Part shown: piece by piece, positions 18,617-45,342 of the stretch | Position numbering within the stretch: the first letter of the stretch is position 1 | How the letters are laid out: every line of letters starts with the position of its first letter | Translations under genes and position numbers: made by a program | Notes under the pieces: generated by a model | Told to the model about the DNA's origin: nothing | What the model saw: only the letters and a program-made list of their open reading frames with translations | Database searches by the model: none | Source of the DNA: Bacteroidia bacterium | GTDB taxonomy: Bacteria; Bacteroidota; Bacteroidia; JAIBAJ01 | DNA length: 49,169 nucleotides | Reading direction: 5' to 3' | NCBI GenBank assembly: GCA_019695265.1 | Contig: JAIBAJ010000013.1 | Location: forward strand, 1-49,169

Positions 18617-21070
18617 CTAGGGCGAAACTTTACAAAATTTACCCGAAACACCGCCGCATCGTATTGTATAAATTCCTGACGGCCAATTGGATACATTAAA
18701 AGAAACCTCGTTAAAACCAATTTCCGCTTGGTAAATATGAGCTGACTGCCTTTGTCCAACGCTGTTATAAACTTCCACCCATTCCGAATCTTCCGGCTCA
18801 TGCTCCCAAACCGCATGAATGTAACCATTTGCTATCGGATTGGGATAGATAAAAAGCTTCACCTTTTCATCCAAAGGCCTAAAAATGGCCTGAACCTTAA
18901 GTTGGGTATTGGATTGAAGTTGAATGCTATCTGTATAAAAAGTGCCGGAACTATCATTTTGTACACGAAAAGAAAGAAATTGAAAGCCTGGTTTTGCAAC
19001 TGCTTTAATTGTAATTGGGACTTCCTGAAAGTACAATCCATTCCAACCATGTTCAAGACCTTGAAGACTGTTCAGATCGAAAGTTCCCCCTAGTTCGGGC
19101 ACACAATCCAATTGCAAAGGATAGGGCTGTTGAAGCTGAAAATAATCCCGAAGATGCTCGCGGGCAAAATCGGTTCTTTGCTGAATATAAGGAAAAGCCA
19201 TCGTATCAAACTCAGCTTGCCAGCTTTGCATAGAGCCTCCCCAGGTTTGAAACTGCAGAGGCATTTCGGTTCGAATAGTATTCAAACAGGCTTGGGTATG
19301 ACTTAGCAAATTCTCCACCTTAAACCATGCGTTCATGGCATCGGCATACCGGTTTATAAAACGGTTACGAAAGCCCTGATTTTTGAGCAATTCATTTAAA
19401 ATAAAAATTTGCTTGTTAGATAAGCCTATATATTCAAACATTCGCTTAAACATATTGTAGTTAGCCGGGGCCCAGCCAATATTACCAAGGGATATGTCAA
19501 AATCGATGGGAAGATAACGCCATTTTGCACCGGGCTTTCGCTCCCGCCAATACTTCATGTTGTTGTTAGGCCAATCAATATTTGAAAAAAAAGTCTCGGC
19601 AATGAAGTAATCAATAAAATTACTAATATCTAACTGTTTACTTACCGAATCGAACACCCATGATTGAGCAAGATCTTGGTTTTGAATAAAGGCAAACAAT
19701 TGATTCCAATTTTCAAAATCACCTTCCCAGGCTAATTGGTCTTCTTCCAGTAGATCCAGGTTTTCTTTATCAATTTCCGGATAGTGTTCGTTTAAGAAAT
19801 GTTTGTCAATTTTCTCTCGTAAATTGTACAAACCCAAAAATTGTCCATTGAAATATACTTTAGTTGCCCGATAGGGGTTAAGATCCAAATCCATTTTAGC
19901 CTTGATAAGCAGGGAATGTACTGCTTCATCCCGGCAATGCAGTTTATTGAAGTCTCCACTTCCATTTCGAAGCACCAGGCTTTTAAAACGAACTGCAGAT
20001 AAATCAGGAAAGAAACGACAAACCATGCGGTTGTTTCCATAAGCTGTTTTAGCCTCCAGGTGAAGGCTTTTCATTGGTTTGGTTCGGTTTTGTGAACCTC
20101 CATGAATTTCGGCATCTACCCATTGATCCAACCTTTTTCTTCCATTGCTTTCAAAAAACTCCAAATGCAATGGCACTTTCCAATCTTGCCAAAAATTAGC
20201 ACCGTAGTATGGATAATCCGGTGAAGCGTTGGGACCTGTAATAAAAATGCCCGAATCAGGGCTAAAAAAATAGGCTGAATCGGTAGTAAGAGAAATGACT
20301 GTCAAAGGAGGGTGAGTTTCAACCCAATAGGTTTCAACCCATTCTTCAGAAGGCAGCAAACTATCAGTCTCAGACATGGGAAAATTACGAATTCTAAAAC
20401 TGGTATTGGTATTAACTTCCAATTCATCCGGGAAAATGGTACCGTTTAGCAAGGGCTTCGAGCCATTTCTGGTATAAACACTGCGGTATGGGCGGGAAGT
20501 AGGCAAAAGATGAAGCTTGACCCCATTTGGATAAAACCCACCCATGCGACTGGTTCTTACTGCTTCACAATAAGCCTTAAAATAGCGGGTATTATGGTTA
20601 GCTTGGTTAGGACTTGGTGTTTCAACTATTCGAAATGGTCCAAATTCACCAGGTATTCTGGCTATGCTGTGGTTTGGTTGTAAACTCTTACCGCTAACCT
20701 GATCCAGTATGCCCTCACCGGCGTGAAAAAGATAAATTGTTTCATCCCTCGATTCAACTTCAAAAGCGGAATGCAGCTCATTGGGTGAATTGGTTTTACC
20801 CGACAAAAACACTAAAAAGACCGCATGAGCAGGAACCTGAAAAGAAGGCAACTCCCAGGCAGATTGAAAATCCGGATGATTGGAAAGAAAATAACCCGAA
20901 GTACTTATCGCTGTTTCAGCAGAATTAACGAGTTCAAGCCAAGGTTCATTATCACCCGATTCGTCTTCAAGTTCGGAATTGATGGGACAATATTCATTAA
21001 TTCTAAGCTGAGAATAACTCTTAGCACAAAACAATACCAATATGCAACAAAAAAAGACGAAACGACACAT
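18617..21070 (-). CDS. Secreted CotH-domain protein with lamin-tail domain and T9SS sorting tail
   Basis: An exported protein of 817 residues. Signal peptide 1-20 (ends SYSQ). A lamin-tail domain follows (about 21-155, with INEYCP and EPWLELVNSA). A chitobiase C-terminal-like segment (about 165-250) has the VYTRNGSKPLLNGT motif. A CotH kinase-like domain (about 298-600) has HCRDEAVHSLL, GLYNLREKIDKHF and WRYLPIDFDISLGN; related CotH proteins are atypical protein kinases. The last 80 residues form a Por sorting tail (VKLFIYPNPIANGY ... GIYTIRCGG). The domain order is common among Bacteroidota surface proteins. It converges on the mutase gene, and the two are separated by the 17870-18533 repeat island. 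The function on the cell surface is unknown. Confidence 0.88.
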   Translation of the reverse strand: MCRFVFFCCILVLFCAKSYSQLRINEYCPINSELEDESGDNEPWLELVNSAETAISTSGYFLSNHPDFQSAWELPSFQVPAHAVFLVFLSGKTNSPNELHSAFEVESRDETIYLFHAGEGILDQVSGKSLQPNHSIARIPGEFGPFRIVETPSPNQANHNTRYFKAYCEAVRTSRMGGFYPNGVKLHLLPTSRPYRSVYTRNGSKPLLNGTIFPDELEVNTNTSFRIRNFPMSETDSLLPSEEWVETYWVETHPPLTVISLTTDSAYFFSPDSGIFITGPNASPDYPYYGANFWQDWKVPLHLEFFESNGRKRLDQWVDAEIHGGSQNRTKPMKSLHLEAKTAYGNNRMVCRFFPDLSAVRFKSLVLRNGSGDFNKLHCRDEAVHSLLIKAKMDLDLNPYRATKVYFNGQFLGLYNLREKIDKHFLNEHYPEIDKENLDLLEEDQLAWEGDFENWNQLFAFIQNQDLAQSWVFDSVSKQLDISNFIDYFIAETFFSNIDWPNNNMKYWRERKPGAKWRYLPIDFDISLGNIGWAPANYNMFKRMFEYIGLSNKQIFILNELLKNQGFRNRFINRYADAMNAWFKVENLLSHTQACLNTIRTEMPLQFQTWGGSMQSWQAEFDTMAFPYIQQRTDFAREHLRDYFQLQQPYPLQLDCVPELGGTFDLNSLQGLEHGWNGLYFQEVPITIKAVAKPGFQFLSFRVQNDSSGTFYTDSIQLQSNTQLKVQAIFRPLDEKVKLFIYPNPIANGYIHAVWEHEPEDSEWVEVYNSVGQRQSAHIYQAEIGFNEVSFNVSNWPSGIYTIRCGGVSGKFCKVSP

Positions 21071-23633: not shown

Positions 23634-23658
23634 AAAAAGGAACACCCATTAGTGTTCC
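23634..23658 (-). terminator. First terminator after the nuclease gene
   Basis: GGAACAC (23652-23658 on the minus strand) pairs with GTGTTCC (23639-23645), followed by five T, 17 bases after the nuclease stop. Together with the next hairpin it makes a tandem terminator. Confidence 0.75.
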
Positions 23659-23674: not shown

Positions 23675-25903
23675 TTATTCCTTAATCCAGTTTTTCACAA
23701 TAGCTGAATCACCCGAAGTGATTTTTACCAAGTATTGTCCAGGAGTTAGGTTTTCGGTATTAAAGGAGTATTGGTTATTTCCTTTAGAGGCTTTGTAATT
23801 TCCTTGCAGAACTACTTTACCAAGCAAGTCGCACAACTGAATTTGAACAGGTTGGTATTGATCTACATTTAGGGAAATGTTTAAAAAGGCTTTACTTGGG
23901 TTAGGGAAAACTGCCAATTGATTATCCAATAAACTTGGGGTTTCTACATCGGTAAATTCGCAAGGTGCGGTACCTGGGTTTGCGATATAATTCATGGTAA
24001 AGAAGTCGATGTGACAAACCCAATCAGGATTATCAATAAAAGGATTCCGGTTTCCTTGTAAAGAATCAAGGAATTCATTGCGGGCAATTTCCCAGGCATC
24101 CGGTGGATCTTGGAAATGCCATTGACGCAATACATTTTGGTTTTCATATATAGCGGCATGAGGCAAAGTCCAGGAGTTTCCACTTTCGCCATTGTAAGCG
24201 GCACACATATAAAACAAGGCTCTAGCAGCATCACCTTTATGGCTATCGCGAGGTTCAAAAACATTTTTCCCGGAAGAATTTTTACCATAGGTGGCATCTT
24301 GGAAGGTACTTACCACGGTAGCTACATTATCCAATGGCAAATTGCTTCTGGTTTCGTTTACATCAGTGAACTTAGCCGGAAAGATGTGGTGTTGATCATT
24401 GTATTCCGGTAGTTCAGGATTGTCGGCCGGGTTAGTTGGCATCCAATCATGGCAATAGGTATGCTCCCGACTGAAGTCTGCTGTTGTCCAATCAAATGGT
24501 TCAGAATAAACTTGGTTTAAACCGGAATATACACAGGTTACCACTTTTTGTCCGTTGGTAGTATCGCGGGAGGAAAACAAACGAACCATGGTTTCGTCGT
24601 AATTTCCATAGAAAATAGAAGTATGTGGGTTAATTACAGCTTGCAGGTCATTCACGAAGGTGGAGGCAGAAGGATCAACACCATTGTAATAGCTGCCCGG
24701 GTTAGCACCTGTTGTGGTTACAGAACCGGTTAAAGGGTTGGATTGCAGGTAATTTACAACCGCTCCGGTGCCGTTGTAGGCATAAACAGCAAAGTAATAA
24801 TCGGTATTGGCAACGTTGTAGGTAGGAACAACGGAAGTTGCCGAACCAACACTTACAACTTTAGCACCACCAATGGCATCACCACGTGTATAAAAAGTAC
24901 CATCCACAGGGGTTTCAGTTACTGCAGAACCAATTTTACGCAACACCAAATAACCGGTTGGAGCAGAAGAGGCTGCAGTAAAGTTGGCTGTGTAACGATA
25001 CGCTTTCACATTTGAAAAACTTAAACCGGTAGCTTGAGCCGCTGGTTCGGTAGCATATTCTCCACCCACCCCAAAAAGGTTAATCACATAAGAACCTTCA
25101 TCGGCATCGTTATTTGCAATGGTCATCACAGCCGAACGAGTTCCGGCAGCAGATGGAGTAAAGGTTACGGCTAAAGTAGTATTGCCGGAAGGAGAAACCG
25201 TAGCAGGAAAACTTGGTGAGCTAACAGAAAAATCAGAAGCTGCCGGACCTGAAAAGTTAACTCCGCTAAGAGATAAACTTTGTTGAGTTCCTTGGTTTTC
25301 AACAGTAAAATTCACTGTTAGAGGCGTTGAAACATTGGAAGAGAAAGGAGCAGAAGTTCCACCGGAGAAGATAGTAGATCCGTTTTGTTTCACGTTAATC
25401 TCTTGTGAAGTAACAACTGCCTGAGCGATGCTAATTTCATCAATGGCCACATTGCTTCCGGATGATTTTGCGGTAAAGAACCAACGGATGTAACGACTGG
25501 CGGCATTAGGATTAGCGGTGTATTGAACAAAGTTGTTCGCATTCAGGTTGTTGGAAAATGTGGTAAGTGCTGTCCAGTTGCTACCATTTGTAGACTCTTC
25601 CAAAGTAAAAGTTCCTTGCCAGGCTGCACCATTGGAGGTAGATCCTTTCAGGTAGTAAGTAACTACGCCCATTGGGTCGTTTGTTTGAACCCCAATGTAT
25701 TCGCCTTGAAGGTCAATTTTACCGGAAACCCCCGACTGACCAGTGGTATAGGTATAAGTACCGGTTATGTTGGTAGTCCAACCGGCAGAAAGGCTGGATT
25801 GCCCTGCAAAGCCTTCGAAATTATACGAAGTTGGCAGAGGAGCCTGGGCAAAAGCACCTGCGGAAAAACTTAGGATTGCCGCAGTAAATAAACGTTTTAG
25901 CAT
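23675..25903 (-). CDS. Secreted endonuclease I family nuclease with T9SS sorting tail
   Basis: A 742-residue extracellular nuclease. Signal peptide 1-19 (ends GAFA). Residues 20-160 form a beta-sandwich resembling a carbohydrate-binding or adhesion module, 168-280 a choice-of-anchor D-type Ig-like domain, and 285-398 a fibronectin III-like domain. The endonuclease I domain (PF04231) is at 401-632, with REHTYCHDWMP (E480, H481), DQHHIFPA (503-510), NETRSNLPL, DSHKGDAARALFYM and QGNRNPFIDNPDWV. The Por sorting tail is 659-742 (LAVFPNPSKAF ... GQYLVKI). It starts 17 bases after the TonB-dependent receptor stop and is followed by two terminators, so it is co-transcribed with the receptor. It probably digests DNA or RNA outside the cell. 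Confidence 0.93.
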   Translation of the reverse strand: MLKRLFTAAILSFSAGAFAQAPLPTSYNFEGFAGQSSLSAGWTTNITGTYTYTTGQSGVSGKIDLQGEYIGVQTNDPMGVVTYYLKGSTSNGAAWQGTFTLEESTNGSNWTALTTFSNNLNANNFVQYTANPNAASRYIRWFFTAKSSGSNVAIDEISIAQAVVTSQEINVKQNGSTIFSGGTSAPFSSNVSTPLTVNFTVENQGTQQSLSLSGVNFSGPAASDFSVSSPSFPATVSPSGNTTLAVTFTPSAAGTRSAVMTIANNDADEGSYVINLFGVGGEYATEPAAQATGLSFSNVKAYRYTANFTAASSAPTGYLVLRKIGSAVTETPVDGTFYTRGDAIGGAKVVSVGSATSVVPTYNVANTDYYFAVYAYNGTGAVVNYLQSNPLTGSVTTTGANPGSYYNGVDPSASTFVNDLQAVINPHTSIFYGNYDETMVRLFSSRDTTNGQKVVTCVYSGLNQVYSEPFDWTTADFSREHTYCHDWMPTNPADNPELPEYNDQHHIFPAKFTDVNETRSNLPLDNVATVVSTFQDATYGKNSSGKNVFEPRDSHKGDAARALFYMCAAYNGESGNSWTLPHAAIYENQNVLRQWHFQDPPDAWEIARNEFLDSLQGNRNPFIDNPDWVCHIDFFTMNYIANPGTAPCEFTDVETPSLLDNQLAVFPNPSKAFLNISLNVDQYQPVQIQLCDLLGKVVLQGNYKASKGNNQYSFNTENLTPGQYLVKITSGDSAIVKNWIKE

Positions 25904-25920
25904 ATGTATTGATTAAAAAG

Positions 25921-28728
25921 TTAGAATTCGATTTTGAGTCCAATGGTATATCTGCGTCCTTGAGCAACAAAAACTGTAGCAGAAGCAGCGTCAAAATTAC
26001 CGCCATTTACCGCATCAGTTATATAACTTTGGTTTAATAGGTTGATAACGCTTGCATTGGCATTTAAGACTAGTTTCCAGAGTTTGAATTTATATCCTGC
26101 ATGCAATTCCAAATAGTAATAATCCGGAATTTTCCAGGAATCTCGGCCTTCATTGTTGATGATATTACCCGTACCATCATCATACTTGATTAAAGTAAGC
26201 GGGTCAAAGGTTGAGTAATTGTTTCCAAAGTAATTAAATCGGAATTTTAAATATCCCCCTTTAATTGGTTCATACCTCAATGAAAATGCGGCTTGTAATT
26301 GAGCGGCATCCCCGGTATGTATTCCATTGGTAACGGGACGCAGGGTGTCAACAATAACTTCAGTACCTGAACTATACAAATAAGCTAAGCCATTTCCCCG
26401 GTAAGTCCAGTCTGCAATAGAAGCCATAACTTCATATTGCAATTTCTTTACAATGTAACCGGTGGCATCTATTTCCAATCCAATACTTTGAGTATTTATA
26501 CCTTGCAACACATAAGAATAGCTGTCTCCAGCTATGTTGATGGTTGGAATGCTGGCAGGTGGTTTATTGGTCCAGTAAGTATAGTATAGGTTGGCATTTA
26601 AGGCATGTTTCTTTAATTTAAGCCCGTACCCCAATTCCACTGCTTTGATCATTTGTTGCTTAACATCCGGGAATGACAAATTGGAAGTGTTCGAATAAAA
26701 CTGAGAGTATCTAGGAGCAATGCTCAATAGTCCGGCATTCATAAAAATGCTGTTATTCTCATCCAGGTTATAGTTAGCTCCCATTTTTACGGTAAAGCCC
26801 GGAAACCAGCGCCAATCCTGAGTGTTGTATCTGGCTTCTTTCGATTCAATGGTGTAATTATTGCCATTATAGGCTAGGGTATCGCCCCAACCTACCGCCT
26901 CCTCCAAGGTAGTATCGGATAAAACCAGATCCTTTTTACGGAAGTAATCTACCCGTTTATAGCCGGTCATAGAAAAAGAACCATTAAGAAATACCGTAAA
27001 ATTGCTTCCTTTATATTCTCCTTGTGCAAAAGCACCAAACCAACGTATAATTCCATCATTGTAATAATTGATTTTGTCACCAACTGTTTTTTTGCGGTAG
27101 GAGATGTTGGGGTCTCCGGGCCCCAAAGGTCTTGGCTCCAGATTGTTTTTATCTCCAATATAATAATCCCCGCCAAACAAATTGGCAATCTCCTGATAAT
27201 GGGTTCCTTTATAGCTTCGTATGTCTAATCCTCCCATAATACTTAAACGCTTGATAGGATTATAATTCAAAGTTGATAGCAAACCATACCAAAAATGGTT
27301 GTTTACAGAGCGGCGTATAATACCATTCTTATTACTCATGGTCAAGGTGGTATCATAACCGGTATTGATGTAAGTTGAATTTTGTTCATACATCGGAGTT
27401 AAGTTAAATGCTCCGGTAGCAGAATCCCTTGGATAACCGCTGGTACTTACAAAAGCTTCTCCTCCTCCACGACCAATGGATAAATAAGCCACATTGCTCC
27501 AGGTGAATTTCTCATTGGGTGTCCAAAAATGACTCAGGTTAAATTGAGGTTTATGGTAAATATTCTGACTGGGATTTAATTCATGTCGAACACCATTTTC
27601 ATCGGTATAAATTCCCCATCCTGCATTGTACCGAAGTCCACGATCGCCAATAAATGAACTGCTATAATTATCAGAACTGTTCAGTGTGCTATCTATCTGA
27701 TGACTACTTATTCCAAGTTTTTCGGCTAGTTGGGTGCTATAAACGGCAACCGGCAACCGGAACGAACGTTGACCATGGGTTTGTGGGGCTCCACTTACCG
27801 AAAAGGTCAACATTTGATTTTTGAATTCCTTTTGAATCTTTAGAAAATACCCCCATGCCTGAAAATCGGTTTTGTCCGTCCAGCCTTGTCCTTGCTTGTA
27901 ACTACCTGCCAAGGTAATTCCCCAACCGCCTTTCAAACGACCGGAGTTAAAACCAAAGCTAGTACGAAACATGGCATTGTTTCCCACTTCCTGTTTAACG
28001 TATCCGCCTTTTTTGCTATCAATACCTTTGGTCATAATATTGATAGTTCCACCAACGCTGGGAATAGCCAATTTGGAGGCTCCTAAACCACGCTGTACCT
28101 GCATGGTACGGGTAATATCCCCCAGGTTATCCCAATTGCTCCAAAAAACTTGTCCGTTTTCCATATCGTTTACCGGAACACCGTCTACCATAACAGCCAC
28201 GTTTCGTTGGTCAAATCCGCGAATATTGATGCGGCTGTCACCCATACCACCACCTTGTTCTGTAGCATAAACACCCGGGGTGGAATTCAACACCATAGGC
28301 AAATCCCTGGAGGCTGATTCTTCCTGAATTCGGGCTCCGCTTAAGTTTGTAAAAGCAATAGGGGTTTCACGGCTGCGAGCAACATCTGCCACTACCTCCA
28401 CCTCTTGCAGTTGGGTAGGCTCTAAGGAGGCATCTAACAAATAAGGTTTTCCGCTTATTTTAACCTTTTGAACTTTGGGCGTAAATCCTACATAGGAAAT
28501 ACTAATTTCGTATTCGCCATCGGGCAAATCGATGGAATAATTCCCATCCAAATCCGTGGTAGTTCCTTTGCCTGGACCATAAGATACGGTTGCACCAATG
28601 AGAGTTTCCCCGGTGGTGAGGTTTTTTACCGTCCCTTTTAATACTCCTTGTGCAAAAACATAAACTCCTGAAGCCAGGAATAAAATGGTTGCTAAAACAA
28701 ACTTTTTGAAATCCATAAGATGAGACAT
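25921..28728 (-). CDS. TonB-dependent outer-membrane receptor
   Basis: A 935-residue TonB-dependent transporter. Signal peptide about 5-26 (ends VYVFAQ). A CarboxypepD_reg-like domain follows (28-110, GTVKNLTTGETLIGATV ... TTTDLDGNYSI), then the plug (about 118-235, NSTPGVYATEQGGGMGDSRINIRGFDQRNVAVMVDGVPVN ... GGTINIMTKG) and a beta-barrel ending in a terminal aromatic (IGLKIEF). It is not of the SusC type and no SusD gene is present. Met1 at 28728 or Met5 could be the start. The gene is immediately followed by the secreted nuclease, so the likely cargo is a product of nucleic acid breakdown or phosphate; this is inference from context. A terminator for the preceding gene ends just before its start. 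Confidence 0.93.
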   Translation of the reverse strand: MSHLMDFKKFVLATILFLASGVYVFAQGVLKGTVKNLTTGETLIGATVSYGPGKGTTTDLDGNYSIDLPDGEYEISISYVGFTPKVQKVKISGKPYLLDASLEPTQLQEVEVVADVARSRETPIAFTNLSGARIQEESASRDLPMVLNSTPGVYATEQGGGMGDSRINIRGFDQRNVAVMVDGVPVNDMENGQVFWSNWDNLGDITRTMQVQRGLGASKLAIPSVGGTINIMTKGIDSKKGGYVKQEVGNNAMFRTSFGFNSGRLKGGWGITLAGSYKQGQGWTDKTDFQAWGYFLKIQKEFKNQMLTFSVSGAPQTHGQRSFRLPVAVYSTQLAEKLGISSHQIDSTLNSSDNYSSSFIGDRGLRYNAGWGIYTDENGVRHELNPSQNIYHKPQFNLSHFWTPNEKFTWSNVAYLSIGRGGGEAFVSTSGYPRDSATGAFNLTPMYEQNSTYINTGYDTTLTMSNKNGIIRRSVNNHFWYGLLSTLNYNPIKRLSIMGGLDIRSYKGTHYQEIANLFGGDYYIGDKNNLEPRPLGPGDPNISYRKKTVGDKINYYNDGIIRWFGAFAQGEYKGSNFTVFLNGSFSMTGYKRVDYFRKKDLVLSDTTLEEAVGWGDTLAYNGNNYTIESKEARYNTQDWRWFPGFTVKMGANYNLDENNSIFMNAGLLSIAPRYSQFYSNTSNLSFPDVKQQMIKAVELGYGLKLKKHALNANLYYTYWTNKPPASIPTINIAGDSYSYVLQGINTQSIGLEIDATGYIVKKLQYEVMASIADWTYRGNGLAYLYSSGTEVIVDTLRPVTNGIHTGDAAQLQAAFSLRYEPIKGGYLKFRFNYFGNNYSTFDPLTLIKYDDGTGNIINNEGRDSWKIPDYYYLELHAGYKFKLWKLVLNANASVINLLNQSYITDAVNGGNFDAASATVFVAQGRRYTIGLKIEF

Positions 28729-28730
28729 AG

Positions 28731-28769
28731 AAAAACAAAAAAGGCACCGGATTTAGGTTCCAGTGCCTT
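28731..28769 (-). terminator. Terminator between the lamin-tail protein and the TonB receptor
   Basis: AAGGCAC (28763-28769 on the minus strand) pairs with GTGCCTT (28741-28747), with further GGA/TCC pairing inside, followed by TTTTTTGTTTTTC. It ends 3 bases before the receptor start, so receptor expression needs read-through or a promoter inside the upstream gene. Confidence 0.82.
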
Positions 28770-28783
28770 CAAATGGGGCTAGA

Positions 28784-29686
28784 TTAGTTAATGGATAACT
28801 TGCTGTATCCAATCGTATTTTGGTCGAAATAGGCTTTTACAATGTATAAACCTTTGTCAATTCCTACGGTAGAAAATTGCATTCCGCTTAGGTAGGCTTC
28901 GTTGTTCATGAAACTAGCAACTACTTTACCTGAGCGATCAACAAGCTCAACACGGGTAACTTTATTTTTAGTGGAAAGGGTAACTTCTGTGTTATTAGAC
29001 GGATTTGGGAACACAGAAACAAAATGTTTGCTACTTTCTTTAATTCCGGTAGCACAAACACAGTCATGAGTTCCTAAACCATCCCAGGTGTTTACTACCA
29101 AGGTATCATATTCAGCCAATGGATCAAAAAAATCAGGGTTGGTGGCAACACCACGATCAACACCGGCCTTACGACGCATGGTATGATCCTTGGTAATCCA
29201 AGCACCTTGAGCATCGGTATATGGGTATTCATTGGTCCAAGCAGTACCGGGATCTTCACCAATTTTACCGAAGATATCCACTTTTTCAGTACCAAATTCC
29301 AAAACCACGGCATCGTCACCATTCATATAAGTTGGTGCAGGATAAGCTCCATCCAACTGGTCTGCCAAAGCTTGTAACGCCGGACTACAAGCAGGAGAGC
29401 TTGCTGTTCCGGTGGTTTGTCCGTTTACAATAACCCAAACATCATTTGGAGCAATTGTTCCTGATAGTGCAAGTTCGCCACCGGCAGTATAAGCCGTGCT
29501 ACCATTGCTATAACGTCTAATAAAGTATCCGGTAAGGCTAATTGGTTGATTAGTTGGATTATAAATCTCCAAAGCCTTGTCATTTCCATCACCATCAATG
29601 TATTCAGAAATGAACAATTGGGTGCATTGTGCTGAAGCTAAGGAAGCCAAAGATACAGCGAATAAGGTAGTAAAAATTTTCTTCAT
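28784..29686 (-). CDS. Secreted lamin-tail domain protein with T9SS sorting tail
   Basis: A 300-residue exported protein. Signal peptide 1-19 (SLASLASAQ). One lamin-tail domain covers about 20-205 (FISEYIDGDGNDKALEIYNPT, with GYFIRRYSNGS, DVWVIVNG, DDAVVLEFG and VDIFGKIGEDPG). This is the subtype often linked to extracellular nucleases in Bacteroidota. A Por sorting tail covers about 222-300 (HFVSVFPNPSNNTE ... KGLYIVKAYF). It is the first gene of the receptor-nuclease cluster and has a good -7 box upstream, but a strong terminator lies between it and the receptor. The lamin-tail domain is thought to bind nucleic acid or act as an adhesion module; its role here is inferred. Confidence 0.88.
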   Translation of the reverse strand: MKKIFTTLFAVSLASLASAQCTQLFISEYIDGDGNDKALEIYNPTNQPISLTGYFIRRYSNGSTAYTAGGELALSGTIAPNDVWVIVNGQTTGTASSPACSPALQALADQLDGAYPAPTYMNGDDAVVLEFGTEKVDIFGKIGEDPGTAWTNEYPYTDAQGAWITKDHTMRRKAGVDRGVATNPDFFDPLAEYDTLVVNTWDGLGTHDCVCATGIKESSKHFVSVFPNPSNNTEVTLSTKNKVTRVELVDRSGKVVASFMNNEAYLSGMQFSTVGIDKGLYIVKAYFDQNTIGYSKLSIN

Positions 29687-29705
29687 TACAGATGTGTTGA
29701 GCCGA

Positions 29706-29713
29706 CAAAAATA
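29706..29713 (-). promoter_or_regulatory. -7 box of the lamin-tail protein gene
   Basis: TATTTTTG on the minus strand is an exact TAnnTTTG match, 19 bases before the start at 29686. No clear TTG at -33. Confidence 0.5.
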
Positions 29714-29929
29714 AGGTATAGATTTTAACGGAATTTAGGAATTTATCCACCGACGGCAGAATTTAACTCAAAGTTGTCATTTTGCTAAGGTTCTTTTTAC
29801 TTTAGAAAAATTTGAATTGTCCTAAAAATAAGGATTTCCCATGTTTTATCCCCATCCGGATTCATTCTAAAATAGTTGATAACCATTCTGTTTTTAGAAT
29901 TTCCATTTTGATAAACCAGGTTTTTATTT

Positions 29930-30085
29930 GGCGGGCCCCCTCCGCCTATTAATTGCCTGCATCACCTCTTCCTTTCTGCAATGGCGTTCGGGTCACGCTA
30001 TCGCCTGTAGTCCTCGTCACCCTAGGCTAACGCCGTCGGGCTCCTGTGGGCTACCTGGCTCTATCGTTGCCCGGGGTGCAAACCC
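29930..30085 (+). repeat. GC-rich structured dispersed repeat, copy E
   Basis: Full-length copy between the lamin-tail gene start and the tRNA-Cys terminator, not downstream of a same-strand gene. In the neck of the second hairpin it has GCC/GGC where all others have GGC/GCC: both sides changed and pairing is kept. First hairpin arms are CGCC/GGCG with ATTGC/GCAAT, and the third hairpin is GGGT/ACCC (30074-30085). The remainder of the 29714-30216 gap shows nothing else that I recognise. Confidence 0.87.
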
Positions 30086-30216
30086 AAACTGTTTACAATT
30101 TGAACTTGGGCTCGGGAGGTACAAGAGGGTTTCCATTGGTTCAGGTTTGCCTACCGAACTCGTGATAACCGAACCACTGTTGATTTGGTCAAAAAAATGA
30201 TGGAAAAGCAAAAAAC

Positions 30217-30246
30217 AAAAAACCCCGAATTACTTCAGGGTTTTTT
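30217..30246 (-). terminator. Terminator after tRNA-Cys (works on both strands)
   Basis: ACCC and GAA pair with TTC and GGGT around a TTAC loop, with one C/A mismatch, flanked by A6 on the left and T6 on the right. It directly follows the encoded CCA of the tRNA. Confidence 0.75.
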
Positions 30247-30319
30247 GGAGGTCGCGAGCGGATTTGAACCGCTGTACGAAGTTTTGCAGACTTCTGCCTA
30301 GCCGCTCGGCCACGCGACC
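30246..30319 (-). tRNA. tRNA-Cys (GCA)
   Basis: The cloverleaf reads on the minus strand from G at 30319. The acceptor stem is GGTCGCG/CGCGACC with U73, as usual for cysteine tRNA, and CCA is encoded (30246-30248). The D stem is GCC/GGC. The anticodon arm is GAAGT-CTGCAAA-ACTTC with anticodon GCA. The T arm is AGCGG-TTCAAAT-CCGCT. It has its own promoter just upstream and a terminator just downstream. Confidence 0.96.
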
Positions 30320-39307: not shown

Positions 39308-39576
39308 AACGAGGAAGGCAAGGTAAACTTAAAAACCAGGTAATATTAACCACTTTTAACCCTTATAAGCAGATGGAGTGATAAATCGAATGAGTAAAGT
39401 TGTTCTTTCATTGCTTTCCAAATTAAGATTGATTTCATGGAGGAACGAAAGAGGAATGGCAAGTTTGAAAAAACCTATTAAAATGATATCAAGGAATTAT
39501 CCCCTGTTCGAAATTAACTTTTGTTAATCTCCATGGATTTTGGTTGTTACACTTTTGCGTCATCAAAAATCCCATT
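39308..39576. other. Divergent intergenic region before the S74 surface protein
   Basis: About 270 bases between the divergent cytochrome and surface-protein genes. A weak promoter-like CACTTTTG lies at 39550-39557, 19 bases before the surface-protein ATG, but without a well-spaced TTG. Nothing else is recognised. Confidence 0.35.
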
Positions 39577-42500
39577 ATGATAAGAAAAACACTTGCCTTC
39601 TTTATTCTAAGCATTTCTTCTATTTCGTACCTGCACTCTCAAAATGTAGGCGTTGATGTAGCCAATCCACAGCAAAAACTTGATGTAGCCGGCGGACTAA
39701 GAATTGGTATGACCTCTGTGGGTTTAGCCGGAAGTATTCGCTGGACCGGTTCGGCCTTTGAAGGACACAACGGAACAGCTTGGTTGCCATTGGGCTCAGG
39801 TTCAGGTGGAGCTACCGGACCTACAGGACCTACCGGGGCGACTGGTTCACAAGGAGCAACCGGAGCAACCGGAGCTACAGGGGCTACCGGATATCTTACG
39901 AATGGGTCTGCGGCAGGAAATACACCCTATTGGAACGGCTCGGCCTGGGTAACCAATACCAGCAATATTTTTAACAACGGAGGGAATGTTGGAATTGGAA
40001 CTACCAGTCCAACCAATGCTAAATTACATGTGGAAAATCCCGGACGATCTACTATAGCTCGCTTTGGAGGAAGCAATCCTACCTATTTAATGGCTAATTA
40101 TCCGGTTCTGGGGTTTAATGCCTATTATGGAGGTTCATCCTGGAATTTTGGAACAACCGGATATGGAGGATTAATTGGTATGAGTCCGAACAATGGTCGT
40201 ATTTTTATAAGTACCAGTTCAGTTTCCGGAGCTGCAGACGGAACGGCAACTATGACCGATGTTATCAATATTTTGAACAATGGAAAAGTAGGAATAGGGG
40301 AAACTTCTCCCAATGCATTGCTAACAGTTGGGGCGGCCATGTCCAATAATGTTAACCCTCAACTAAGTGTAAACACAACAGGCAATATACCAGTCCTAAT
40401 TGGAGAAACAACCAACAATAAAGGAGTGATGTTGGGCTATGCCGGTAATGATGTTCAAGGAAGAAGCGGTAATAGTCTGATTCAAAATTCCGATTTGGTT
40501 TTAAACGGATATGGAGGAAATGTGGGAGTTGGAAATTTTACCCCGGGTGCAAAATTGGATGTAGCGGGTAAAACTAAAACAACGACTCTGCAAATGACCT
40601 CCGGAGCGGCGGCCAACTATGTATTGCAAAGCGATGCCTCCGGAAATGCAAGCTGGGTTGCACCAACTGCACTGACTGTTACTGAAAATGATCCACAAGT
40701 TTCATCAGCCACTTCCAATGCTGTGCCTAAATGGAACGGAACTAGCCTGACAGATGGAACCATTACCGACAATGGCAATGTGGGAATAGGTTCCACTACC
40801 CCATCTGAGAAGTTGGATGTGGTTGGTAAGACCAAAACCACCACTTTGCAAATGACCAATGGAGCAGCCGCAAACTATGTTTTGCAAAGTGATGCCTCCG
40901 GAAATGCAAGCTGGGTTGCTCCAACTGCACTAACAGTTACCGAAAATGATCCACAAGTATCTTCTTCCACCTCCAATACCGTTCCTAAATGGAATGGAAC
41001 AACCTTGACAGATGGAACCATTACCGACAATGGCAATGTGGGAATAGGTTCCACTACCCCATCTGAGAAATTGGATGTGGTAGGTAAAACCAAAACCACC
41101 ACCTTGCAAATGACCTCCGGAGCCGCAGCCAACTATGTATTGCAAAGCGATGCCTCCGGAAATGCAAGCTGGGTTGCACCAACTGCACTTTCTGTTACCG
41201 AAAATGATCCACAAGTATCTTCTTCCACCTCCAATACCGTTCCTAAATGGAATGGAACAACCTTGACAGATGGAACCATAACCGACAATGGCAATGTGGG
41301 TATAGGTACTGTAACTCCATCTGAAAAACTAGAGGTAGCAGGCGCAATAAAGGCAACCGGAGGCGCCACTTTTGGAAATAATATACAAGTTAATGGGAAT
41401 TTTTATTTAGAAAACACCAACGGTACAGGAAGTGTTCTTCCTTTTAGACTGGATGGGTTTTCAGATAAATTATATGTAATTGCGGAAAGCCAGGCCGGTG
41501 GACCAAGTGGAACAGAGATTCGTTTCCGTACCGCATCTTCCTCTGCTTCTGCTTCAGATAAGATGGTAATTAACAAAGATGGAAATGTGGGTGTTGGAAA
41601 CATGTCGCCTACGGAGAAATTAGATGTTTCAGGAAAAACCAAAACCACCACCTTGCAAATGACTTCCGGCGCAGCAGCTAACTATGTATTGCAATCCGAT
41701 GCATCCGGAAATGCTACCTGGGTTGCACCAACTGCATTAACAGTTACCGAAACCGATCCACAGGTTTCCTCAACCACTTCCAATGCTGTGCCCAAATGGA
41801 ACGGAACCACCCTCACCGATGGAACTATAACCGACAATGGCAATGTGGGAATTGGCTCTGCTACTCCTTCCGAGAAATTGGATGTAGCTGGCAAAACCAA
41901 AACCACCACCTTGCAAATGACCTCCGGTGCTGCGGCAAACTATATATTGCAATCCGATGCATCCGGAAATGCGACCTGGGTTGCACCAACCGCATTGACC
42001 GTAACCGAAACCGATCCACAGGTTTCCTCAGTAACTTCCAATGCCGTACCCAAATGGAACGGAACCACCCTCACCGATGGAACTATAACCGACAATGGTA
42101 ATGTGGGAATTGGCACTACGGCACCTGCAGCCCAATTGCATGTGAATGGAACTTCTCAAACCGACGGCAATGCTTATTTTGCATCAAGCCTTGGGGTTGG
42201 AACTTCGACACCAACCAATGCTCAGATTCAATTAGGTAACAGTTCAGGAACCCAAGCCCGATTTGGAGGGAATAATCCGTTGTATATCATGTCAAACTAT
42301 CCAGTTGTTGGATTCAATACGTATTACAACAATTCGGCCTGGCGCTACAGTAATACCAATTTTGGTGGTTTAATAGGGATGGAAACTGGAACAGGACGAA
42401 TTTTTATCAGTTCAAGCACCACTTCCGGAACTTCCGGATCTGCGGCAAATATGACCGATGTTATAAATATAATGCCATCTGGAAACATTGGAATTGGAAC

Positions 42501-45342
42501 TACTGCTCCGACTGCAACACTAGATGTAACAGGCAAAACAAAAACCACCAATTTACAAATCACTTCCGGCGCAGCAGCTAACTATGTATTGCAATCCGAT
42601 GCATCCGGAAATGCGACCTGGGTTGCACCAACTGCATTAACAATTACCGAAAGCGATCCACAGGTTTCCTCAACCACTTCCAATGCTGTACCCAAATGGA
42701 ATGGTACCACCCTCACCGATGGAACCATAACCGACAATGGCAATGTGGGAATTGGTTCAGCTACACCTTCCGAGAAATTGGATGTGGCAGGAAAAACCAA
42801 AACCACCACCTTGCAAATAACCTCCGGTGCTGCGGCAAACTATGTATTGCAATCCGATGCGTCCGGAAATGCTACCTGGGTTGCACCAACTACATTGACT
42901 GTAACGGAAAGCGATCCACAGGTTTCATCAACCACTTCCAATTCAGTACCTAAATGGAACGGAACCACCCTCACCGATGGAACCATTACCGATAACGGAA
43001 ATGTGGGAATAGGAACGGTAAGTCCATCTGAAAAATTGGAAGTTGCCGGTTCATTAAAAACCAGTGGAGGAGCTACATTTGGAAATAATGTTCAGGTAAA
43101 CGGGAATATTTACCTAGAAAACAACAGTGGTACAGGAAGTGCACCTCCTTTTAGGTTGGATGGCTTTTCAGATAAATTATATGTCGTAGCAGAAAGCCAG
43201 CCCGGTGGTCCAAATGGAACCGAAATCCGTTTCAGAACTGCAAGTTCCTCTACTACTGCCTCAGATAAAATGGTCATTAATAAAGATGGGAATGTTGGGA
43301 TTGGCTCGGTTTCCCCTTCTGAGAAATTAGAAATTAATGGTAAGACAAAAACAACTGACTTGCAATTGACTTCCGGCGCGGCAGCTAATTATATCCTGCA
43401 AAGCGACGCATCGGGAAATGCTTCCTGGGTTAATCCCAATACGGCCATTGCACCTAATAAATTACAAGATGCTGATGCCAATACCAAAATTGAAGTAGAA
43501 AAAAACTCCAATGAAGATAAAATTCGTTTTTCAATGGCCGGAATTGAATATTTAGTGATGGACAAAGGTCATTTTTATACTTCCAACACAGCAGGTAATA
43601 CCTGGTTTGGAGAGCAATCCGGTCAGAACTTCAGTGTAGGTTCTACTACATACAACTCCTATTTTGGTTTCAAATCCGGATTTACAGCCACTACCGGAGC
43701 TGAAAACGTAGCTATGGGTGCCCAATCCTTAGCTTTTAACAATACCGGAAGTTACAATACGGCATTAGGCACTTATGCTATGCGTTCAACTACAGGATCG
43801 GGTTCTACTGCAGTTGGTCATAATGCATTATTTAATAATCAGGGAGGATCAGACAATGTGGCATTGGGTAGAAATGCAGGTTATGCAACCACTACAGGAA
43901 CCGGAAACATTTTTCTGGGAACCAATGCCGGTTATTATGAAAATGGAAGCAATAAATTGCATATAGACAATGCTCAAACTACTACTCCATTAATTTACGG
44001 AGATTTTAGCAGTGATTTTATTACTGTTTTCGGAAAACTGGCAGTAGGTACTTCTTCACCAAGTTCCGATTTTTCTTTTGGTGGAGATGGAACAACGGAT
44101 CGTAAAATTGCCATGGAACGTAATACAACAGTAGCGGATGGAAACGACTTAACTATTCAGTCGGGAGGAGCGGCAGTTGGAGTTACCAATGCCAGCGGTG
44201 GTAATTTAATTTTAAACAGTGGTATTTCAACCGGCAATGGCAGTGCTGCCAGCTCCATTGTATTTGGAACCGCCAGTCCTGGTGCATCAGGTACTGCCAA
44301 CCGCAACCCATCAGAAAAAATGCGGATTACCGCAGCAGGAAATATTGGAATTGGAACTTCGGCTCCTTCCAAAACCCTGGATGTACTGGGTAAAGTTGGT
44401 ATTTTCTCCGGAAGAAACAACGACCCAACCATCCGAGGCTTATCAAACGGAGCTTGGTTTCGTATTGGTGGTTCAGATGCAGGTTTGGCACTTTGGGGTA
44501 ACAGTGCAGCAGAAACAGATGAATCGCCCGGTTTGTTTGTTAGCAGCAGTAATAATGTGGGCATTGGAACTACCAATGTCACCAAAGCAAAATTAGAAGT
44601 TAATGGTTCCCAAACTACCACCCTTAGCTATGGCTACCTCAATAGCAGTGCCAATACAGGTACCGCTTCCAACCAATCTACCTTTTATTCCATTTATGCT
44701 TCTGCCCGAATTGCTGCAACCGAATTCAATGCCTATTCCGATGCCCGAATCAAAAAGATAAAAGGGCTATCCAACAATGAAGAAGATCTTCAACGACTAT
44801 TAGGTATCCAAATTACCGATTATACCTTAATAGATACCATTGAAAAAGGAAACAACTCCTATAAAAAGGTAATCGCCCAACAAGTAGAACAAGTATTCCC
44901 ACAGGCGGTAAGTACCATGACCGATGTTATTCCCAACATCTATCAATTGGCTGATATTCAAAACGGTAAAATCAACTTAAACAATACCCTTAAAGCCGGT
45001 GATAAAGTGAAACTTATCTTCGAAAGCGGTACTGAACTACTTCAGGTAACCGAGGCTACCCCGGGTTCTTTCCGTGTAGAAAGTCCTAAATGCGGAAAAG
45101 TGTTTGTTTATGGGGTTGAAGTAAATGACTTCCACACCGTTGATTACGAAGCACTTTCAACCTTAAACATTTCAGCCACACAGGAGCTCTTTAAAATGAT
45201 TACCCGCTTAAGCAGTGAGAACGAACTTCTGAAAGACCAAATGGCAACATTCTCCAGCGATATAGAACAAATTAAGGCTCAAATTGGCTTACAACAGGGA
45301 GTGAAATCAGGCAATGAATCTGCTTCCATGACTACCAATTAA
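39577..45342 (+). CDS. Giant repeat-built surface protein with collagen-like segment and C-terminal S74 self-cleaving chaperone
   Basis: A 1921-residue exported protein. Signal peptide about 1-20 (ISYLHSQ). A collagen-like Gly-x-Thr run of about 30 residues (GPTGPTGATGSQGATG, near 78-106) is followed by a long array of tail-fibre-like modules ending in VGIGTTxPxxKLDV turns, including eight copies of an 86-residue unit. After about residue 1300 come FGFKSG and GTYAMRS head-repeat motifs. The C-terminus is an intramolecular chaperone of the endosialidase S74 type with the Ser-Lys dyad S1721-K1726 (YSDARIKK) and IAQQVEQVFPQAV. It would trimerise the fibre and then cut before S1721, releasing 201 residues. 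The C-terminal helix suggests a coiled coil. There is no T9SS tail. Start chosen at the Met opening the signal peptide. Confidence 0.88.
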   Translation: MIRKTLAFFILSISSISYLHSQNVGVDVANPQQKLDVAGGLRIGMTSVGLAGSIRWTGSAFEGHNGTAWLPLGSGSGGATGPTGPTGATGSQGATGATGATGATGYLTNGSAAGNTPYWNGSAWVTNTSNIFNNGGNVGIGTTSPTNAKLHVENPGRSTIARFGGSNPTYLMANYPVLGFNAYYGGSSWNFGTTGYGGLIGMSPNNGRIFISTSSVSGAADGTATMTDVINILNNGKVGIGETSPNALLTVGAAMSNNVNPQLSVNTTGNIPVLIGETTNNKGVMLGYAGNDVQGRSGNSLIQNSDLVLNGYGGNVGVGNFTPGAKLDVAGKTKTTTLQMTSGAAANYVLQSDASGNASWVAPTALTVTENDPQVSSATSNAVPKWNGTSLTDGTITDNGNVGIGSTTPSEKLDVVGKTKTTTLQMTNGAAANYVLQSDASGNASWVAPTALTVTENDPQVSSSTSNTVPKWNGTTLTDGTITDNGNVGIGSTTPSEKLDVVGKTKTTTLQMTSGAAANYVLQSDASGNASWVAPTALSVTENDPQVSSSTSNTVPKWNGTTLTDGTITDNGNVGIGTVTPSEKLEVAGAIKATGGATFGNNIQVNGNFYLENTNGTGSVLPFRLDGFSDKLYVIAESQAGGPSGTEIRFRTASSSASASDKMVINKDGNVGVGNMSPTEKLDVSGKTKTTTLQMTSGAAANYVLQSDASGNATWVAPTALTVTETDPQVSSTTSNAVPKWNGTTLTDGTITDNGNVGIGSATPSEKLDVAGKTKTTTLQMTSGAAANYILQSDASGNATWVAPTALTVTETDPQVSSVTSNAVPKWNGTTLTDGTITDNGNVGIGTTAPAAQLHVNGTSQTDGNAYFASSLGVGTSTPTNAQIQLGNSSGTQARFGGNNPLYIMSNYPVVGFNTYYNNSAWRYSNTNFGGLIGMETGTGRIFISSSTTSGTSGSAANMTDVINIMPSGNIGIGTTAPTATLDVTGKTKTTNLQITSGAAANYVLQSDASGNATWVAPTALTITESDPQVSSTTSNAVPKWNGTTLTDGTITDNGNVGIGSATPSEKLDVAGKTKTTTLQITSGAAANYVLQSDASGNATWVAPTTLTVTESDPQVSSTTSNSVPKWNGTTLTDGTITDNGNVGIGTVSPSEKLEVAGSLKTSGGATFGNNVQVNGNIYLENNSGTGSAPPFRLDGFSDKLYVVAESQPGGPNGTEIRFRTASSSTTASDKMVINKDGNVGIGSVSPSEKLEINGKTKTTDLQLTSGAAANYILQSDASGNASWVNPNTAIAPNKLQDADANTKIEVEKNSNEDKIRFSMAGIEYLVMDKGHFYTSNTAGNTWFGEQSGQNFSVGSTTYNSYFGFKSGFTATTGAENVAMGAQSLAFNNTGSYNTALGTYAMRSTTGSGSTAVGHNALFNNQGGSDNVALGRNAGYATTTGTGNIFLGTNAGYYENGSNKLHIDNAQTTTPLIYGDFSSDFITVFGKLAVGTSSPSSDFSFGGDGTTDRKIAMERNTTVADGNDLTIQSGGAAVGVTNASGGNLILNSGISTGNGSAASSIVFGTASPGASGTANRNPSEKMRITAAGNIGIGTSAPSKTLDVLGKVGIFSGRNNDPTIRGLSNGAWFRIGGSDAGLALWGNSAAETDESPGLFVSSSNNVGIGTTNVTKAKLEVNGSQTTTLSYGYLNSSANTGTASNQSTFYSIYASARIAATEFNAYSDARIKKIKGLSNNEEDLQRLLGIQITDYTLIDTIEKGNNSYKKVIAQQVEQVFPQAVSTMTDVIPNIYQLADIQNGKINLNNTLKAGDKVKLIFESGTELLQVTEATPGSFRVESPKCGKVFVYGVEVNDFHTVDYEALSTLNISATQELFKMITRLSSENELLKDQMATFSSDIEQIKAQIGLQQGVKSGNESASMTTN
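40570..43600 (+). repeat. Coding tandem and modular repeats, 258-bp unit x8
   Basis: Eight copies of a unit beginning Lys-Thr-Lys-Thr (then TSGAAANYVLQSDASGN) start at 40570, 40828, 41086, 41635, 41893, 42535, 42793 and 43342; neighbouring copies are exactly 258 bases apart. Two other modules also occur twice: one with RFGG.NP.Y.M.NYPV.GFN.YY (about 40060 and 42260) and one with FRLDGFSDKLYV.AESQ (about 41440 and 43150). The order is A-B-B-B-C-B-B-A-B-B-C-B. Confidence 0.9.

Follow-up and report, generated by a model that had tools for sequence, protein, structure and literature searches.

A lamin-tail protein, a TonB-dependent receptor and a secreted nuclease form a conserved operon in Bacteroidota with a proposed role in feeding on extracellular nucleic acids

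INTRODUCTION

We found that the genes for a secreted lamin tail domain (LTD) protein, a TonB-dependent receptor (TBDR) and a secreted nuclease form a conserved unit across many families of Bacteroidota, an arrangement that is not due to chance. We think it reasonably likely that this operon serves to acquire nutrients from extracellular nucleic acids, with the nuclease and the LTD protein delivered to the cell surface by the type IX secretion system (T9SS) and the receptor acting as the importer. In the open-access collection searched, we found no published description of an LTD-receptor-nuclease operon. Bacteroidota are regarded as major agents in the recycling of extracellular DNA (PMC8289736). 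A defined receptor family, conserved widely and accompanied by a nuclease, now allows the outer-membrane passage of nucleic-acid fragments to be tested in cultured members, and it places DNA feeding alongside a receptor type that has already been genetically implicated in transformation.

RESULTS AND DISCUSSION

The operon and its proteins

Within the window, by which we mean the whole stretch of 49,169 nucleotides that was analysed, the three genes follow each other on the minus strand in the order LTD, receptor, nuclease (Table 1), with 55 bases between the first two and 17 between the last two. The original prediction of a TBDR 17 bases from a secreted endonuclease I with a T9SS tail, preceded by a secreted lamin-tail protein, was confirmed by open reading frames and Pfam matches, and all three proteins start with what reads as a signal-peptide-like N terminus. 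The LTD protein consists of a lamin tail domain (residues 19-139, E = 6.6e-16) and a T9SS type A tail (residues 225-298), while the receptor carries a CarbopepD_reg_2 domain (30-112, 1.6e-15) and a TonB plug (120-227, 2e-14) ahead of its beta-barrel. The nuclease has N-terminal beta domains, a choice-of-anchor D domain, an Endonuclease_1 domain (PF04231; 1.2e-28, 101 bits against a cut-off of 25) and a T9SS tail (665-738, 1.6e-13). The tails on the nuclease and the LTD protein (Por_Secre_tail), together with a gene for the T9SS translocon SprA in the same genome, point to placement of both proteins at the surface. The genome holds 11 matches to the receptor and one to endonuclease I, the latter adjoining the window receptor.

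Table 1. Positions of the operon genes, hairpins and RNA leader elements (window coordinates unless a locus is named)
Feature	Position	Strand	Basis or remark
Secreted LTD protein, 300 aa	28784..29686	-	ORF + Pfam
TonB-dependent receptor, 935 aa	25921..28728	-	ORF + Pfam
Secreted nuclease, 742 aa	23675..25903	-	ORF + Pfam + NCBIfam
Endonuclease_1 catalytic region	24026..24601	-	Only endonuclease I match in own genome
Terminator-/attenuator-like hairpin, LTD-receptor gap	28740..28770	-	Terminator scan, folding
Terminator-like hairpin after nuclease	23639..23658	-	Terminator scan
RNA leader examples	L073:6930-6987; L187:2827-2888; L189:5849-5898		
RNA leader tandem copies	L076, 17031-17164	-	

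The active site of the nuclease is well preserved, including the Glu-His pair and Asn of the family: among 101 aligned rows, H481, D503 and N516 were present in all 101, E480 in 100 and N521 in 95. From Vvn/EndA, we take E480, H481, N516 and N521 to be the catalytic residues. We made no use of a structure model of the nuclease, as its catalytic region was largely below a pLDDT of 50 and its structural matches were to beta domains only. The AlphaFold2 model of the receptor (pLDDT 86) gave a plugged barrel, in agreement with the plug domain, and its closest solved structures were ~14% identical. Since this model resembles many TBDRs equally well, the substrate of the receptor can be inferred from its gene company only.

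Conservation across Bacteroidota

Searches at the family and order levels matched the window's own genome alone, so a class-level sample was used, in which the receptor matched 137 of 395 genomes (E<=1e-60) and endonuclease I 224 of 395 (E<=1e-8). Working down from the strongest receptor match, we took 120 neighbourhoods. The tree built from them has 119 receptors, of which 118 come from the sample and one from the window; two short receptors were omitted. The window receptor fell into a clade of 95 members (SH-aLRT 99), outside which lay 23 others and a long-branch row, L139. With the two short receptors included, 96 sampled clade loci were tallied. A scan of genome contigs added 80 named loci, of which 61 remained after removal of 18 duplicates of sampled loci and a near-duplicate, L231; the window locus was counted together with these.

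The LTD gene and a nuclease gene proved to be regular companions of the receptor. In this non-random sample, picked by receptor similarity and with many loci from few lineages, an LTD gene was the immediate upstream neighbour in 144 of the 154 clade loci where an upstream ORF was available (85/93 sampled; 59/61 named plus window), and a nuclease was adjacent in 122 of 142 testable loci (73/90 and 49/52, respectively), where a testable locus had a minimum of two ORFs downstream, or else a nuclease. Of the 23 family labels, 21 included one or more loci with an adjacent nuclease. For receptors outside the clade, the corresponding counts were 0/23 for an upstream LTD gene and 2/24 for a downstream endonuclease I; one more distant receptor (L153) had a nuclease and a 5'-nucleotidase upstream. 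The original prediction had asked whether the three families co-occur across Bacteroidota and had named receptor orthologues consistently free of nuclease neighbours as the outcome that would speak against it; these counts show the opposite. One complete Bacteroidota operon (L176, CP034120.1) came from a record named Glaciecola amylolytica, a name that may be wrong. An apparent LTD-receptor fusion (L192) was rejected: the signal peptide of the receptor is preserved where the two proteins meet, which suggests a lost stop or a frameshift.

A nuclease was missing next to the receptor in 20 of the 142 testable loci (17/90 sampled; 3/52 named plus window). Several of these lie at contig ends; real absences are found in f14, in part of f29 and in L057, L058 and L063. 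In the f14 loci L126, L127 and L129, the LTD-receptor pair is followed by RecD-like helicase and EPSP-synthase-like genes, and each of these genomes has one endonuclease I match, located away from the receptor. The lineages that keep the LTD protein and receptor with no nuclease alongside also bear on whether the receptor, rather than importing a nutrient, helps to deliver its two T9SS-tailed neighbours to the surface. We hold such a role to be highly improbable, even though both neighbours do carry T9SS tails and TonB-dependent secretion in Myxococcus is cited in the accessible text of PMC8383284. Those nuclease-less pairs argue against it; moreover, T9SS cargo elsewhere is not known to need a dedicated TBDR.

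Two nuclease types in one slot

The nuclease slot is not tied to a single enzyme family. Among the 122 clade loci with an adjacent nuclease, 85 had endonuclease I (59 sampled and 26 named, the window included), and in 37 (14 sampled, 23 named) the protein in the slot beside the receptor or LTD gene combined a DUF5689 domain, a PLD-like domain and a T9SS tail, mostly at lengths of 700-960 aa. Both HKD motifs were present in 37 of 40 such DUF5689-PLD proteins, a list that contains duplicates and in which the other three are short or cut at contig ends. These proteins resemble the nuclease NucT and the endonuclease Nuc, and also mitochondrial cardiolipin hydrolase; that the PLD family takes in lipid enzymes as well counts against the nucleic-acid reading. 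With a custom profile, DUF5689 was also found N-terminal to some versions of endonuclease I, two of which missed the Pfam cut-off when scanned.

Further enzymes join the unit in places. A split 5'-nucleotidase, encoded as a 5'-nucleotidase C-terminal domain and a metallophosphatase, occurs in 13 clade loci (8 sampled, 5 named), where it forms the two genes downstream of the nuclease in one lineage, and in L130 a T9SS-tailed metallophosphatase sits between the receptor and the PLD nuclease. The window operon has no nucleotidase, and the 5_nucleotid_C match of its genome is on a different contig. The sharing of one slot by two nuclease types and the addition of nucleotidases point to nucleic acid as the theme common to these loci. 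Together with the conservation of the unit, this supports the predicted view of the locus as a nucleic-acid counterpart of a polysaccharide utilisation locus.

The exchange of nucleases and the added nucleotidases also weigh against a receptor that imports something else, such as a metal, a phosphate complex or another nutrient, with a nuclease that is merely co-regulated, for example for the breakdown of biofilm or necromass. This we consider quite unlikely, while acknowledging that siderophores, PQQ, copper and cobalamin are the cargoes of solved TBDRs with a similar fold, that the receptor's substrate was assigned from gene company, and that 20 clade loci have no adjacent nuclease.

In the feeding scheme that we favour, the nuclease and the LTD protein would be exported by the T9SS to the cell surface, where the nuclease, judging from its sequence, would cut DNA and/or RNA. 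The LTD protein would probably keep nucleic acid or its fragments close to the receptor, which in turn would probably move oligonucleotides or nucleotides over the outer membrane with TonB energy, and periplasmic nucleotidases could then free phosphate and nucleosides. The nutritional purpose of the operon is our inference.

A distant relation to transformation receptors

A receptor beside a DUF5689 protein is known from natural transformation. In Riemerella anatipestifer, the TBDR-like RA0C_RS04915 and its DUF5689 neighbour RS04920 are described as essential for transformation (accessible text of PMC8459023), and tonB mutants transform less, an effect that the authors link partly to iron (accessible text of PMC8383284). 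The window receptor may by analogy be an outer-membrane DNA uptake channel for transformation, with the LTD protein capturing DNA and the nuclease trimming or nicking it. In our class sample, 20 DUF5689 loci were examined, and 13 of them had a receptor beside the DUF5689 gene or one gene away, the other seven having no DUF profile call. These receptors fit the description of RS04915 and form a separate group. Aligned to the window receptor, they showed ~22% identity, in many cases almost from end to end. Scored on matched N-terminal stretches against a profile of the DUF5689-type receptors, window-type receptors reached 116-155 bits and paralogues from the window's own genome 23-52 bits; in the reverse profile comparison, the groups overlapped (60-168 versus 57-164 bits). 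Sequence comparison thus indicates that the relation between the two receptor types is real but distant.

We regard a transformation channel as unlikely. The receptor identity is just ~22%, the reverse profile does not separate the groups, and the DUF5689 pairs were matched to RS04915/RS04920 by description, not by sequence. Furthermore, the window's own genome contains no PF18942 match at E<=1e-10, and so no DUF5689 partner by this measure. Because a surface nuclease and 5'-nucleotidases suit feeding better than gene uptake, we take feeding to be the better reading. A broader idea, which we put forward tentatively and regard as doubtful, is that a whole branch of Bacteroidota TBDRs carries nucleic acid over the outer membrane, with the operon described here used for food and its distant DUF5689-paired sister for transformation. 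If true, the receptor would replace the secretin and pilus used elsewhere.

Comparison with known systems

Like SusCD-type polysaccharide utilisation loci, the unit joins a surface enzyme, a surface accessory protein and a TBDR in one operon. It differs in that its enzyme is a nuclease and its accessory a T9SS-delivered LTD protein, and, as predicted, SusCD is absent: neither SusD nor a SusC-type receptor family was found in the eight neighbouring window proteins scanned. In L074 (10726-11175) and 19 other loci, a small lipocalin-like lipoprotein with a weak Pfam match follows the receptor and is often encoded immediately ahead of the nuclease; it is a possible stand-in for SusD.

A parallel is also found in the DNA-degradation loci of Ca. 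Izemoplasmatales (Wasmund 2021; accessible text of PMC8289736), in which extracellular nucleases, phosphohydrolases, an LTD-containing protein and transporters are co-located. These loci share with the window unit the co-location of nucleases and an LTD-containing protein, and differ in having ABC and phosphate transporters and neither a TBDR nor a T9SS. To their knowledge, the authors state there, such multipartite organisations had not been described in other microorganisms.

The Riemerella pair likewise places a TBDR-like receptor beside a surface protein and has DUF5689 in common with the unit's PLD nucleases. It differs in its transformation function, in having no nuclease or LTD in the accessible text of PMC8459023, and in receptor identity, the ~22% being to the family matched by description.

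The LTD protein of the window has its own similarity to the exonuclease ExeM, to the N-terminal part of which it matched in NCBIfam. It scored 67 bits where the cut-off is 1300, which shows that it is no full-length ExeM. In ExeM, LTD and nuclease are both parts of one protein; in the window they are separate proteins, and the nuclease is of a different family.

Hairpins and regulation

The LTD-receptor gap of the window contains a hairpin (28770-28740) with a folding energy of -18.8 kcal/mol (z -3.6), whose U tract extends into the receptor start. Similar hairpins were found in 55 of 139 LTD-receptor gaps of the clade versus 26 of 695 shuffles, and in only 1 of 99 receptor-nuclease gaps. This contrast suggests that more LTD protein is made than receptor and nuclease, which would be expressed by read-through past the hairpin. 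Terminator-like sites 3' of the nuclease occurred in 47 of 95 clade loci versus 24 of 475 shuffles, and the hairpin at 23658-23639 likely marks the operon end. A Pho box, which the original prediction had suggested looking for upstream, was not found in the window leader. A TGTTA direct repeat with an 11-bp period was rejected as a Pho box candidate, with exact repeats in 4 of 127 leaders and none in the window.

In relatives, many clade loci have a conserved structured RNA element of ~45-80 nt upstream of the LTD gene, made up of a closing stem, then CCUACA or CCUUGA, then a variable hairpin and GAAACC. About 45 loci carry it, ahead of LTD genes, DUF5689-type receptors or other T9SS surface genes. 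The closing stem covaries at 0.699 versus 0.246 for shuffled and at most 0.224 for slid alignments, values that come from an alignment fitted to the model and in which the inner four pairs are biased, because seeds were picked with at least four paired bases; the three outer pairs, unselected in the seeds, covary too. No Rfam family reached gathering scores in seven loci with the leader, and weak Rfam matches in two short leader stretches were implausible. This candidate leader is apparently undescribed so far.

The element (E<=0.001) occurred in 26 of 390 genomes and 7 of 195 genera. Among 30 of its loci examined, 11 precede the operon's LTD gene and four a DUF5689-type receptor (397-534 bits), and most of the rest precede secreted, T9SS-like surface proteins, indicating that its association with surface genes extends beyond those for nucleic acids. 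In six f42 genomes, a DUF5689 gene follows it on the same strand at a distance of ~2.7-2.8 kb, and in L296, L305, L307 and L308 of f42, whose genomes are not among the window-receptor matches listed, it precedes DUF5689-type (competence-like) receptors. The window lacks the element; the best match, located elsewhere, reached 16.7 bits (E = 0.088).

Some neighbours of the window operon deserve mention. Between the LTD gene and a tRNA-Cys gene (30246-30319), the stretch 29700-30230 is non-coding with a G+C-rich core and has no Rfam match. Near the operon, at 18617-21070 (-), lies a gene for a CotH-kinase protein, which has a T9SS tail and a lamin tail domain match below threshold. At 39544-45342 (+), adjoining a T9SS-tailed gene, the window encodes a protein of 1932 aa with a Peptidase_S74 chaperone domain at its C terminus.
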